A program made the position numbers and the translations under genes. A DNA stretch of 64,000 nt from Leptonema illini DSM 21528 (lineage in GTDB: Bacteria; Spirochaetota; Leptospiria; Leptospirales; Leptonemataceae): positions 2,225,550 through 2,289,549 of the forward strand of contig NZ_JH597773.1 in the NCBI RefSeq assembly GCF_000243335.1, written 5' to 3'. The notes below the pieces were generated by a model. That model saw only the letters and a program-made list of their open reading frames with translations. It did no database searches and had not been told where the DNA came from. This document shows positions 6,602 to 11,786 of the stretch, piece after piece (within the stretch, counting starts at the first letter, position 1; each line of letters begins with the position of its first letter).

Positions 6602-6961
6602 TCAGGACAGGGCTTTTTGAGCGGCCTGCTGCAGTCTTTCCGGTGGGAACGGTTTCACGACGAAATCTTTCACACCCATTTTGATAGCTCGAGCCAGCAG
6701 ATCTTCCTGCCCGAGAGCCGTTACCATGATAATACGCGCATTCGGATCTTTTTTGAGGATCTCAGAGGCGGCTTCGAGACCGTCTTTTTCGCGCATGGTG
6801 ATGTCCATGGTTACGAGATCAGGTTTCAACGAATCATACATCGTGACCGCCTGATTGCCGTTCTCCGCCTCGCCCACAATCACATGGCCCTGGGACGAAA
6901 GGGCGTCTTTGACCAGCGTTCTCATGAATTTTGCATCGTCCACTACGAGGATTCTTGCCAT
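6602..6961 (-). CDS. cheY: CheY-type single-domain response regulator
   Basis: The 119-residue receiver domain has the acidic pocket Asp8-Asp9, phospho-acceptor Asp53 in VTMDITM, switch Thr81 and conserved Lys103 in VVKPF. With no output domain, it should relay CheA phosphorylation to the flagellar motor switch, or be an accessory CheY. It lies downstream of the cheW-cheA-cheB cluster but is separated by 135 bases with its own promoter candidate, and it is followed by scpA. Confidence 0.9.
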   Translation of the reverse strand: MARILVVDDAKFMRTLVKDALSSQGHVIVGEAENGNQAVTMYDSLKPDLVTMDITMREKDGLEAASEILKKDPNARIIMVTALGQEDLLARAIKMGVKDFVVKPFPPERLQQAAQKALS

Positions 6962-7096: not shown

Positions 7097-8125
7097 CTAC
7101 CGCAACTCCAATAAATAATCGGCAATTCCACTGTCAGAAAGAACCCGGTCCACCACACCTTCTTCAATTGCGCGACGATTCATACCAAAAATGATGCTGG
7201 TCGCCTCATCCTGCGCAAGCACGTGGCCGCCGGCCGTATGCAAATCACGCAGGCCGTCCACTCCGTCGCGTCCCATTCCGGTCATGATGATGCCGAGGAT
7301 CCTGCCGCCGAGGGCTTTCTGGGCGCTCCGGACGGTGAAGTCAATCGACGGGCGATGGGCATGAATCGGCGGACTTTCGTCGAGATCGACAATCAGGGTC
7401 TTGCCGTTCTTCTTTACGGCAAGATGCATTCCGCCTCGGGCAACAACGGCCTGCCCTGCATGAAGCTCGCGTCCCGGCTCGGCTTCAAACACGTCGACTC
7501 CTGAGACCGACGAAAGTCTTGAAGCAAAGGCGGCGGTAAACACGGGCGGCATATGCTGAACGACGCAGATCGGCAAAGGAAAGCCTGCAGGTAGCCTGCG
7601 AAAGATGCGGTGAAGGCACTGAGGTCCGCCCGTCGAGCTTCCGATGAGAACAAGGTCAAAATCCTGCAATCGACGCTCCGGACCGATCGGCCGCTTCTCA
7701 ACGATAGAAACGGTAGCAGTCTGTCGACTTGCGATGAGTTCAGAGATTTTCTGCTTTAAGAGGGCCTGAAGCTGGTCGACCATGAAGCCCATATGGGCCG
7801 AAGGCTTCGGCACAAAGTCCAGGGCACCGAGTTCGAGGGCGCGAAACGTCGTATCGGCGCCTTCTCGCGTCAGAACGGAAAGCATGAGAACGGGCGTTTC
7901 GAGCCGTCGGGCCCTCCTTTCTTCCAGAACGCGAATGCCGTCAAGGACGGGCATCTCGACGTCAAGGATGGCCAGATCGGGCTTCAGGCTCTCCATCATT
8001 TCGAGGCCTTCGCGACCGTTCACCGCCTCGCCGATTACCGATACTCCGGGTAGCTCTTCGGCTATGTCCCGGACAATCCGTCGCGATAAGGCGGAGTCGT
8101 CTATCAGGAGTATACGGAAACTCAT
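7097..8125 (-). CDS. cheB: Chemotaxis protein-glutamate methylesterase CheB
   Basis: CheB demethylates chemoreceptor glutamates for adaptation. It has 342 residues: an N-terminal receiver (phospho-Asp55 in AILDVEMP, Lys107) and a C-terminal methylesterase with the catalytic triad visible as Ser164 (IGSSTGG), His191 (VQHMPP) and Asp287 (GMGRDGVDG). Its start overlaps the cheA stop by four bases, so it is translationally coupled to CheA, which phosphorylates it. No cheR is present in the window. Confidence 0.96.
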   Translation of the reverse strand: MSFRILLIDDSALSRRIVRDIAEELPGVSVIGEAVNGREGLEMMESLKPDLAILDVEMPVLDGIRVLEERRARRLETPVLMLSVLTREGADTTFRALELGALDFVPKPSAHMGFMVDQLQALLKQKISELIASRQTATVSIVEKRPIGPERRLQDFDLVLIGSSTGGPQCLHRIFRRLPAGFPLPICVVQHMPPVFTAAFASRLSSVSGVDVFEAEPGRELHAGQAVVARGGMHLAVKKNGKTLIVDLDESPPIHAHRPSIDFTVRSAQKALGGRILGIIMTGMGRDGVDGLRDLHTAGGHVLAQDEATSIIFGMNRRAIEEGVVDRVLSDSGIADYLLELR

Positions 8126-11100
8126 CGAATTCGCTTCACAAGATCCATCAGCTCCGGACGGTTCGGCAACATAAACATGCGGCCGAGAAGCTCTGTGTCC
8201 TCTCTGAGAAAATCTGTACTGATATAGATGAACCGCGAATCTCTGTCGGGATTTTCTTTCGCATCGATATAGCTCAGAAGATCTGACGCCTTACCGTGAA
8301 CGAAGTGCGGCACGGTAGGTGTGATCGCCAGGCTCGTACGGTTCGCCATCTCGTTGAGAAGGCTTGATCCGACGATGTTAGTGAGTTCAGACAGAACGGA
8401 CTGCACGTCTTCAATATTCATGGATCGCTTGTTGCGATCCTGCACCGAGATCCCCATCAGCTCGCCGGCAGCGTTATAGCCCGTCTCTTCGTCGAAGACG
8501 AGCATGAGCAAGGCATAGAAGTCTCCCTCCGTTTCGAGGAAAACGCCGATCAGATCGGTATCAGGCAGATAGCTCTGCAGATCGCCGTAGTGAATCGTCT
8601 GAAACTCAGGAACCGTAACCTCGACGGTAACTCCGAGTAGCTGAGAAAGCACAAGACCGCCGTTGATCATACCCGTATTGATCACCGAGTACAGCCGGTT
8701 ATAGTCCGCTTCTTCAAGATCCTCCGCCGGAGCGACGGACGGAGAAAAGATACGCAAGCCCTGATCCATGCGTTCTTCTTTCTCATGATGAAAAGATTCG
8801 ATGGACTTCTGCACCTGCTCATCGCTGATCACATCGGGCGCCGCTTCAAGGCGGGTCAATACGGTGGAGCTTTCATCTCTCTGCGCGCGAGCATCCTGAA
8901 CTACAGGCTCGGCGGGCTCGGGGCGGGCCGTATAGGCGACGCTCTCCTGAGCGCTCTGCGACTTTTGCTGATCGATGCCGGTCTCTGGCGTCGTCGGTAA
9001 GGCCGGTACAGTGGAAGGCGTCACTTCGGGAGTAACGACCGGCGCCTCCAGGACGGAACCTGGATGAGGGTCATTTTTCGGAGCCTGGTCTCGACGACGC
9101 AGTTTGCGTCCCGACCAGGCAAGCTCCTTCACGCGATCGTTATAGCGACGGATCGCATTGAGCACAAGCTCGGGCTGCGATATCTCGCCGACGGCATGTG
9201 TTCGATTTGCGATCTCCATGAGGCTATGCACGTCGAGTACCATGACGATAGAACCGTCACCCATGAGACATGCGCCGATCAGTCCGTCAACACGACGGTA
9301 GTTCTGTTCGAGAGATTTGATGACGATCTCTTTCTTGCCGATCATCTGATCGACGATGTAGCCGATCTTACGATCTGAAACGCTGGCGATAACGACGGGA
9401 AACTCTTCGTCTTCTTCGCCGTCCGGATTGCCCATCAGTTGACCGAGGCGAAAAACCGGAACGATCTCGTTGCGCAGATTGATAATGCTTTTTCCCTGAA
9501 GTCGCGTGATCTCGGATTTCGTAATGCGGATCGTTTCGACGACATCGGAAAGCGGAAAGGCATAATCCTCGTCTTTAATGCGTACAAGGATGGCCGAGAT
9601 GATGGCCAGCGTCAGCGGGAAGGTGAGAATGAAGGCGCTGCCCTGCCCGGGCGTATTCTGGATCTGCACGGTCCCTTTGAATTCGCCGACCATCTTACGC
9701 ACGACATTCATACCGACGCCGCGTCCGCTGAGATTGCTAACCTGAACGGCCGTCGAGAAGCCCGGCAGAAAGATCATGCTGTAAATCTCGTCGTCAGAAG
9801 GCGAAGAGCCGGCTGCGATCAGCCCTTGCTGTATCGCCTTTTCAAGGATCTTCTGCCTGTTGAGGCCGCGACCGTCGTCCCGGATCTCTACATAAATACT
9901 GTTCCCGCTCTGATAGGCCTTCAGAGTCACATGGCCGATGGCGTCTTTCCCGGCGCGGACTCGCTCCTCTTTCGACTCAATACCGTGATCGAGCGCATTG
10001 CGGATCAGATGCAGCAGAGGATCGTTCAGGGCGTCGATGATATTCTTATCGAGTTCCGTATCTTCCCCTTCGATATGAAGCTCCACGTCTTTGCCGAGCG
10101 AAAGGGCAAGGTCGCGGATGGGACGGTTAAACCTCTGGAATACGATGCCGATCGGAATCATGCGAGTTTTCATGATTCCCGTCTGCAAATCACGAGCGAT
10201 ACGTCCGGCCTGATCGATGCGGGATTTCAGCTCGCCTAACAGTGTCGACTCGCCGAACTCGCCGAGCAGATCTTCGTATATCTTGAGAAGACCTGAGTTC
10301 GTAATCACGAGTTCGCCGACGTTATTCAGAAGATAGTCGATTTTCTCAGATGATACTTTGATGTTACGGGTTTTAAGATGCGTATCCTGCATGCCGACGT
10401 CGATCTTGCGATCGACGGCCATCTGCGCCGTCGGATGCTGCTGATCACCGTTCACCTCAAGTTCGGTCAGATGTACCTCTTCCACCATGTCCACCTGACA
10501 CGTTTTGAAAAGGTTCTCCTTCTTCTCGTCTCCGAAATAAATAAAAAGAAGATGGTTAACGCTCGCTCCTTCTTCGAGAGCCTTCGCCGAAGGCTCTGAC
10601 AGATAGACGGTGCCGATTCGGGCCAGCTTGTTCAGTAACAGAAGAAAGCGCATGTTCTTCATCGGCGCGTCTTCGTCGATGGAAACGTAGCCGTGATAGA
10701 TGGGCTTTTTGCCGGCTGAGCGAGCCAGTTCCGTCTGCTGCTCAGATGTCAGCTGGATGCTGCGGATGGGGGCCTCTTTCACCGACTCCTGTTCATGAAG
10801 AATGTTCGCCGTCCCGGTCGCCTTTGAGTCCCCGGCGCTCTCGGTCGCACCGGTCTGAGTCGGCTGGACGCTTTTCTCGGCTCCCTGAAACTGCTCGATC
10901 TGCGAGATCAAGTCGGAGTAGGCGTCGTCGGGCATATTGCCGGCCTGGATGACGGCCACGGCTTGCTTGATACGGTCCAGGCTTGCGAATAGAAGGTTAA
11001 CCAGATCGGTATTTACGCTGATCGACCCCTCGCGTACTTTCTGGAACAGGTCTTCCATCTTATGAGCAAGTCGCGAAAGGGCGTCAAGACCGACGAAGGC

Positions 11101-11262
11101 GGCCGAAGACTTCAGCGTATGAGCCGATCGAAAGATTTCATTGATGATTTCTGGATCGGAACGGTCTTTTTCGAGAAGAAGCAGGTTGGTGTTAAGATTC
11201 TCTATATGCTCGGCCGCTTCATCGAGGAAGAGTTCTGTATATCGTTCTTTGTTGCCGCTCAT
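8122..11262 (-). CDS. cheA: Chemotaxis histidine kinase CheA fused to a CheC-like domain
   Basis: The protein has 1046 residues, about 350 longer than a usual CheA. The order is: HPt with phospho-His48 (residues 1-105); a P2-like region (about 187-270); P3 dimerisation (300-365); HATPase with N-box at 411-427, DDGRG at 462-466 and GRGVG at 513-517; CheW-like P5 (550-690); a Pro/Glu/Ala-rich linker (700-850); and a C-terminal CheC/CheX-like domain (855-1046). The second CheC helix keeps Glu-Leu-Thr-Asn (959-962), the acid-xx-Asn pattern of CheC phosphatases; the first is degenerate. This suggests a kinase that carries its own CheY-P phosphatase or a CheC-type regulatory module. It overlaps cheW and cheB by four bases each. 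Confidence 0.93.
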   Translation of the reverse strand: MSGNKERYTELFLDEAAEHIENLNTNLLLLEKDRSDPEIINEIFRSAHTLKSSAAFVGLDALSRLAHKMEDLFQKVREGSISVNTDLVNLLFASLDRIKQAVAVIQAGNMPDDAYSDLISQIEQFQGAEKSVQPTQTGATESAGDSKATGTANILHEQESVKEAPIRSIQLTSEQQTELARSAGKKPIYHGYVSIDEDAPMKNMRFLLLLNKLARIGTVYLSEPSAKALEEGASVNHLLFIYFGDEKKENLFKTCQVDMVEEVHLTELEVNGDQQHPTAQMAVDRKIDVGMQDTHLKTRNIKVSSEKIDYLLNNVGELVITNSGLLKIYEDLLGEFGESTLLGELKSRIDQAGRIARDLQTGIMKTRMIPIGIVFQRFNRPIRDLALSLGKDVELHIEGEDTELDKNIIDALNDPLLHLIRNALDHGIESKEERVRAGKDAIGHVTLKAYQSGNSIYVEIRDDGRGLNRQKILEKAIQQGLIAAGSSPSDDEIYSMIFLPGFSTAVQVSNLSGRGVGMNVVRKMVGEFKGTVQIQNTPGQGSAFILTFPLTLAIISAILVRIKDEDYAFPLSDVVETIRITKSEITRLQGKSIINLRNEIVPVFRLGQLMGNPDGEEDEEFPVVIASVSDRKIGYIVDQMIGKKEIVIKSLEQNYRRVDGLIGACLMGDGSIVMVLDVHSLMEIANRTHAVGEISQPELVLNAIRRYNDRVKELAWSGRKLRRRDQAPKNDPHPGSVLEAPVVTPEVTPSTVPALPTTPETGIDQQKSQSAQESVAYTARPEPAEPVVQDARAQRDESSTVLTRLEAAPDVISDEQVQKSIESFHHEKEERMDQGLRIFSPSVAPAEDLEEADYNRLYSVINTGMINGGLVLSQLLGVTVEVTVPEFQTIHYGDLQSYLPDTDLIGVFLETEGDFYALLMLVFDEETGYNAAGELMGISVQDRNKRSMNIEDVQSVLSELTNIVGSSLLNEMANRTSLAITPTVPHFVHGKASDLLSYIDAKENPDRDSRFIYISTDFLREDTELLGRMFMLPNRPELMDLVKRIR

Positions 11263-11786
11263 ACTTCACCGCCTTCTTCGAGCAGGTTCGCTTCAGATTC
11301 GGCCACACGATCTTTAAAAAGCAGGGCAAGATTGAAGATGAGGAATATGAAGTCCGACGTGCGCCCCACTCCGCTCAGATACTCCTGAGAGAAGCCGCGC
11401 AGCTCGGCCCCTTCGATGCTCGATTCCTTGAGCGAAACAACCTCGACGACGGCATCGACCAACAATCCCATGCTTTTATCGTTCACCGAGCAGACGACGA
11501 TGCGACTTGTCGGATGCAGCTCAGCGTATTCATGTCGCAGCGTTTTCAGTACGTCGAGAACGGGAATGATGTTACCGCGAAGATTAATGACGCCAAGCAC
11601 CTCTTCTTCGACGTTCGGAAGTCTTGTTACCGGCAGCGGCTTCAGGATTTCATGGATTTTCAGAAGATCGACGCCGTAAAGGCCGCTCCCGCAACGGAAA
11701 ACGAGGAATTGCACCTCGGCTTCGGCAACGACAGCCTCGGTTTCATCGTCGTTCCAGGAAATGGCATTGAGAGAGTTCTCGGGCAT
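11259..11786 (-). CDS. cheW: Chemotaxis coupling protein CheW
   Basis: CheW bridges chemoreceptors and CheA. The 175-residue protein has a CheW domain at about residues 25-165, with the conserved signatures YGVDLLKIHEIL, VINLRGNIIPVLDV and GLLVDAVVEV. It starts 5 bases after the fau stop and overlaps cheA by four bases, so cheW, cheA and cheB are a coupled set reading on from the zapA-fau region. Confidence 0.93.
   Translation of the reverse strand: MPENSLNAISWNDDETEAVVAEAEVQFLVFRCGSGLYGVDLLKIHEILKPLPVTRLPNVEEEVLGVINLRGNIIPVLDVLKTLRHEYAELHPTSRIVVCSVNDKSMGLLVDAVVEVVSLKESSIEGAELRGFSQEYLSGVGRTSDFIFLIFNLALLFKDRVAESEANLLEEGGEV

Follow-up and report, generated by a model that had tools for sequence, protein, structure and literature searches.

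The window analyzed here is a 64,000-nucleotide stretch of the Leptonema illini DSM 21528 genome (contig NZ_JH597773.1, positions 2,225,550 to 2,289,549), and it contains a gene in which the chemotaxis kinase CheA, which switches the direction of swimming, is fused to a C-terminal CheC domain, a kind of domain that ordinarily turns the signal off. The fusion was confirmed in every detail, and its sequence makes it likely that the product is a flagellar CheA with a tethered CheC-type phosphatase of phosphorylated CheY (CheY-P) that uses a single-site mechanism. The sequence-only reading from which we started had described a 1,046-residue CheA with a full HPt-P2-P3-P4-P5 set and a Pro/Ala/Glu-rich linker. 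Pfam recovered all of these domains in order, and the composition of the linker agreed with the description (Table 1). The protein has what is required of a flagellar-type CheA, namely the P1, P3, P4, and P5 core, the phospho-acceptor histidine (His48, which lies in the motif HTLKS), and P2.

Fusions of CheC/CheX with F1 CheAs, the CheA class named for them, were previously found in the class Leptospirae, and a dual kinase/phosphatase function was suggested for them (Berry, Andrianova, and Zhulin 2023, PMC10782961). The L. illini protein matches these proteins in architecture, class, and proposed dual role, so the basic observation is known, and the statement of the earlier reading that other bacteria encode CheC, CheX, and CheZ separately leaves out of account published fusions from the same class. 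In the text of that paper as consulted here, we found no account of the state of the catalytic sites or of the CheD-contact residue, of a contrast between operons, or of fusions found outside the class. Compared with that text, our analysis adds that the fusion extends past this class, that fused and unfused operons contrast, that only one site is intact, and that the CheD contact has been lost; we present these points as additions rather than as proven novelties. A literature search, whose coverage left out most subscription papers, returned no experimental study of the fusion.

Table 1. Features of the cheA-cheC fusion gene, its neighbors, and the stand-alone CheX-family genes (window positions unless a locus is named).
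Feature	Position	Strand	Support or remark
cheA-cheC fusion gene	8122..11262	-	ATG start, 1046 aa, Leptonema illini
P1/Hpt domain, residues 8-100	10963..11241	-	Pfam PF01627, E 6.6e-20
P2 response-regulator-binding (CheY-binding) domain, residues 189-267	10462..10698	-	Pfam PF07194, E 2.3e-12
P3 dimerization domain (H-kinase_dim), residues 300-366	10165..10365	-	Pfam PF02895; same place in genome search
P4 ATPase domain (HATPase_c), residues 414-551	9610..10023	-	Pfam PF02518
P5 CheW-like domain, residues 557-683	9214..9594	-	Pfam PF01584
Linker, residues 689-846	8725..9198	-	Ala 16, Glu 16, Pro 16 among 158 residues
CheC domain (predicted), residues 849-1045	8128..8718	-	NCBIfam NF041093; PDB 1xkr/2f9z; AlphaFold model and fold search
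Degenerate first CheC site, residues 859-862	8677..8688	-	Ser859 replaces Glu; Asn862 retained
Second CheC site, Glu959-x-x-Asn962, sole intact one	8377..8388	-	Unchanged in 36/36 fused domains
Gly990, position of B. subtilis CheC Asp149 (CheD contact)	8293..8295	-	Site Glu+31
cheW	11259..11786	-	Pfam CheW, E 7.3e-33; 4-base overlap with cheA start
cheB	7097..8125	-	Pfam CheB_methylest and Response_reg; 4-base overlap with cheA end
cheY, 119 aa, probable substrate	6602..6961	-	Pfam Response_reg; cheB-cheY order
Stand-alone CheX-family genes	L003 1399-1860; L004 1147-1857	-; +	E-x-x-N motif

Identity of the C-terminal domain

Profile searches, the sequences of solved structures, and the fold ranking of an AlphaFold model agree, and on these grounds the fused domain is assigned to the CheC type with a predicted full-length CheC fold. 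The Pfam CheC profile matched residues 954-988 above its cut-off (E 2.9e-7, 30.8 bits against 22), whereas the Pfam CheX profile failed its own on the fusion protein (residues 907-992, 22.3 bits against 27). The sequence-only reading had placed what it called a CheC/CheX-like domain at residues 855-1046 and had proposed a profile search as a check; the domain is present, but it starts at about residue 849 and is of the CheC rather than the CheX type. The NCBIfam model CheC_Thtogales (NF041093) spanned residues 849-1045 with an E-value of 7.6e-15, a match that stays under the 250-bit cut-off of that equivalog. As a single sequence, the C-terminal 200 residues matched Thermotoga maritima CheC over their full length (E 1.5e-4), and a profile of 36 fused domains compared with solved structures retrieved T. 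maritima CheC (E 3.2e-24), Haloarcula CheC (1.8e-17), and FliY (9.1e-14).

The AlphaFold model of residues 845-1046 had a mean pLDDT of 91.6 and a pTM of 0.87. When it was used in a fold search with VIA-align, three CheC entries came out on top (Z 21.7, 21.3, and 20.2), followed by FliY (Z 18.4), FliM (15-17), and CheX (11-14.5), and Foldseek agreed with this ranking. The profile cut-offs and fold scores together ruled out a CheX identity. The FliM middle-domain profile gave no row for the window CheA, and a sub-threshold FliM row appeared only in its relative L053. The likeness to T. maritima CheC (1xkr, 2f9z) comprises the full-length fold and the second E-x-x-N site. The T. maritima protein differs in that it stands alone, has both sites, and carries an Asp at the position of the CheD interface, whereas the L. 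illini domain is fused, with one site and Gly990.

Catalytic sites and the CheD-contact position

The earlier reading had recognized one intact Glu-x-x-Asn site at residues 959-962, and this pair proved invariant in our alignment of 36 fused domains, in which identity to the window domain falls as low as 24%. Glu959 and Asn962 are two of just 11 invariant positions among 202, and the chance of drawing both catalytic positions is (11 × 10)/(202 × 201), or about 0.003. The E-x-x-N motif was also kept in all 12 of the more distant fused tails that we aligned, from sister orders and other lineages. At the first site, located through the alignment with T. maritima CheC, Glu was found in none of the 36 domains and Asn in 34. 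T. maritima CheC and the stand-alone CheC of locus L037 both have E-x-x-N at this first site and the L. illini domain does not, so we filed the latter as a single-site CheC-type domain rather than a canonical two-site CheC. Because the first site has lost its Glu, the domain would work through one site. Asn970, eight residues after the catalytic Asn962, is a third Asn unchanged in 36/36, as are Asp952 and Ser955.

The column equivalent to Asp149 of Bacillus subtilis CheC was set by its spacing from the site Glu (Glu+31) and by the Asp of T. maritima CheC in the alignment; the site residues of the B. subtilis protein are, in the numbering we assume, E118 and N121. D149 lies at the CheD interface of B. 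subtilis CheC, and the D149K substitution abolishes CheD binding while phosphatase activity stays normal (PMC3513319). None of the 27 Leptospirales rows, the window included, has an Asp at this position; 22 have Gly and five have other residues (Gly becomes 23 when counted by alignment column, where one gapped row shifts, and Asp is zero both ways). The Asp was retained in all nine fused rows from outside the class as well as in the stand-alone CheC of L037, and the 12 distant tails were mixed, with Asp in 2/7 from the sister orders and 4/5 from other lineages. Control of the fused domain by CheD has probably been lost in Leptospirales, judging from these residues. Since the CheD-contact Asp was lost while the Glu/Asn pair was kept, a dedicated phosphatase is favored over a CheD sink, and with CheD control probably gone this is how the domain is best read. 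CheD itself had three matches in the L. illini genome and was matched in 211 of the 296 genomes of the phylum.

Distribution and phylogeny of the fusion

With the window CheC domain as query, 95 of the 296 phylum genomes gave a match at E 0.001. We counted a genome as fused when the match reached E 1e-15 or better in a frame of at least 880 aa. This excluded all weaker rows as well as three genomes outside the class whose matches attained that E-value in short frames (G216, 526 aa; G183, 317 aa; G198, 193 aa). The count came to 67 fused genomes, comprising 19 of the 22 in the family of L. illini, all eight in the other family of its order, and 40 outside the class that span seven family codes (f12, f23, f31, f35, f39, f41, and f46). 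The kinase core as query matched 270/296 genomes. The 69 strongest core rows, all with E of at most 1e-125, lay in frames of 971-1,203 aa in 67 cases and of 861 and 886 aa in the other two, and the much weaker core rows listed were mostly in frames of about 800 aa.

In a tree of 61 CheA cores, one clade with support of 100/97 held 27 fused rows, the window included, from inside and outside the class. Another fused row, L058, fell outside this main clade, as did the divergent tails, and the tree has several long branches (L043, L061, L101, and others). Scored as fused or E-x-x-N-tailed versus unfused, the rows require at least three changes on the tree, and a single origin of all fusions and tails is therefore not established. 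No fusion was found outside Spirochaetota, where the coverage consisted of one wider contig scan reaching close relatives only, the genome-by-genome search being of this phylum. One candidate, L037 (labelled Selenomonadaceae), was rejected: its match spanned residues 7-1045, but cheA, cheW, and a two-site cheC are separate genes there. The arrangement at L037 (6501-11324), cheB-cheA-cheW with the separate two-site cheC, is a possible picture of the pre-fusion state.

The sister orders of the same class (L046-L051 and L101) have a very divergent CheC-like tail on CheA in which E-x-x-N is kept, and cheY adjoins this CheA in L046-L051. No Pfam CheC match over the cut-off was obtained in L046, L047, L048, L050, or L101, and L048 gave one sub-threshold CheX row. 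Based on an hhalign match of 97.6% to the fused CheC profile and an E-value of 2.7e-6 against T. maritima CheC, we treat these sequences, less surely, as divergent CheC tails.

Gene order

The fusion gene stands in the order cheW-cheA-cheB-cheY (Table 1), and the receiver pocket of CheY is canonical by eye from the translation (D8/D9, D53, T81, and K103). In all eight fused loci with sequence beyond cheA (the window, L036, and L052-L057), cheB directly follows cheA. BLAST turned up no CheX in any of the seven fused loci outside the window, and Pfam gave none in those open reading frames (ORFs) of the window that were scanned. The remark of the sequence-only reading that cheX and cheZ are absent nearby was correct, as neither adjoins the fusion gene. 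Among 16 unfused CheA loci hand-picked from one search list, with the four other CheA homologues of the L. illini genome itself (L042-L045) left out, 13 had a CheX ORF after cheW, giving cheA-cheW-cheX(-cheY), and two of them were checked by Pfam. The three without a downstream CheX were L094, which ends at a contig edge, and L098 and L102, with none in the stretch examined. The CheX of this spirochaetal operon belongs to the same superfamily as the fused domain and would perform the same task, but it is encoded by a separate gene of 153-169 aa and resembles the fused domain less closely in structure (Z 11-14.5).

The window segment 5792-12953 on the minus strand reads zapA, 5-FTHF cyclo-ligase, cheW, cheA, cheB, cheY, and scpA, placing the che genes amid cell-division and chromosome genes. 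The whole run from zapA to scpA is retained in L036 (6579-13341), and cheW-cheA-cheB-cheY-scpA is retained outside the class in L052 (3-5500) and L053.

Proposed function and alternative explanations

We infer the activity, substrate, location, and signaling effect of the fused domain as follows. Judging from domain content, the kinase half would phosphorylate His48 and hand the phosphoryl group to CheY. The CheC domain, tethered by the linker of about 160 residues, would bind CheY-P; Asn962 would enter the CheY active site and orient the attacking water, and Glu959 would pair with the active-site Lys, here Lys103. In the mechanism described for CheC, CheX, and FliY, the Asn orients the water and an acidic residue pairs with the receiver Lys (PMC3035606). 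The source and the sink of CheY-P would be co-located in one array.

Several observations weigh against this reading of the domain. Two further CheX-family proteins with E-x-x-N are encoded away from the che cluster, one of 153 aa about 82 kb off (motif GEIAN, NCBIfam CheX E 2.2e-15) and one of 236 aa elsewhere in the genome (motif AEFAN, E 1.5e-6), so the role of main phosphatase may not fall to the fused domain. The sequence-only reading had offered the fusion as a possible explanation for the lack of cheX and cheZ nearby. The lack of a local cheX fits an alternative that holds at the level of the clade; given these two genes, the fusion replaces cheX in the operon and not in the organism. 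A CheZ profile search of the genome gave no match over the cut-off. The invariant E-x-x-N could also serve the binding of CheY-P more than its turnover. The operon contrast depends on hand-picked loci from one search list for its 13/16 pattern, and it is not a clean either-or, as L060 and L104 (both from genome G002) have a CheC-like tail plus a downstream CheX ORF. In B. subtilis, the phosphatase role of CheC is minor and CheD binding is its major role (PMC3513319), and CheD occurs in 67/67 fused genomes versus 144/229 others, a comparison confounded by kinship and by chemotaxis-free genomes.

These last two points, together with the interface Asp retained in 9/9 rows outside the class, speak for a fused CheC that mainly regulates CheD or senses CheY-P, pulling CheD off the receptors at high CheY-P as in B. 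subtilis, with phosphatase activity secondary. We consider this unlikely, because the D149 equivalent is replaced in 27/27 Leptospirales rows and the site Glu/Asn is unchanged. It is quite improbable that the domain has fallen silent or survives as a structural remnant, serving for docking in the manner of the FliM middle domain and lacking phosphatase activity: FliM middle domains do have the same fold (Z 15-17), the first site is already dead, and separate CheX-family genes exist in the genome, but the Glu/Asn pair is unchanged in 36/36 domains, E-x-x-N persists in the 12 further divergent tails, and the sequence is closer to CheC than to FliM. Although a separate cheC near cheA-cheW is known elsewhere, such as the 216-aa gene in L037, the idea that cheA and cheC are two genes wrongly joined through sequencing error is refuted, to near certainty, by the stop-free single frame in many independent genomes, as in the 69 rows at E 1e-125 or better.

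The preferred reading, a CheA with a tethered single-site CheY-P phosphatase, has counterparts in other bacteria. In Escherichia coli, a phosphatase reaches the receptor array via the short form of CheA, but the association is noncovalent and the phosphatase, CheZ, is not known to be related. The phosphatase region of Rhodobacter sphaeroides CheA3 is not known to be related to CheC either. CheA3, a bifunctional kinase-phosphatase cited in PMC10782961, likewise combines a chemotaxis kinase and a response-regulator phosphatase in one protein.

When a kinase carries the phosphatase for its response regulator, both the ratio of CheY-P production to removal and the place where they occur are fixed. 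Because spirochaetes must coordinate motors at two distant cell ends, the question of CheY-P source and sink is genuine and, thanks to the fusion, can be addressed with a two-residue mutant. A wider proposal, which we make tentatively and regard as somewhat doubtful in its entirety, is that the flagellar CheY-P phosphatase of spirochaetes comes in two alternative forms: CheC fused to CheA in the cheW-cheA-cheB-cheY order, within a single supported CheA clade that extends well past the published class, or cheX in a cheA-cheW-cheX-cheY operon. The Leptospirales domain, pared to one catalytic site and freed from CheD, might then be a built-in, dedicated off-switch that sets CheY-P source and sink at 1:1 in the array at either end of the cell. 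With the CheD contact lost in Leptospirales, natural variation pulls apart the two roles known for CheC, as a phosphatase and in the control of CheD, and this natural split is the most interesting remaining point.

Other chemotaxis and motility genes of L. illini

The genome encodes five CheA homologues, and only the fusion protein gave a Pfam CheC row; the four others, without such a row, are L042, L043, L044, and L045, and L043 has two CheW stretches. An Rfam scan of the window produced no matches. The FlaA family, which to our knowledge is specific to spirochaetes, had three matches over the cut-off in the genome of this species, which NCBI places in Spirochaetota, Leptospiria.

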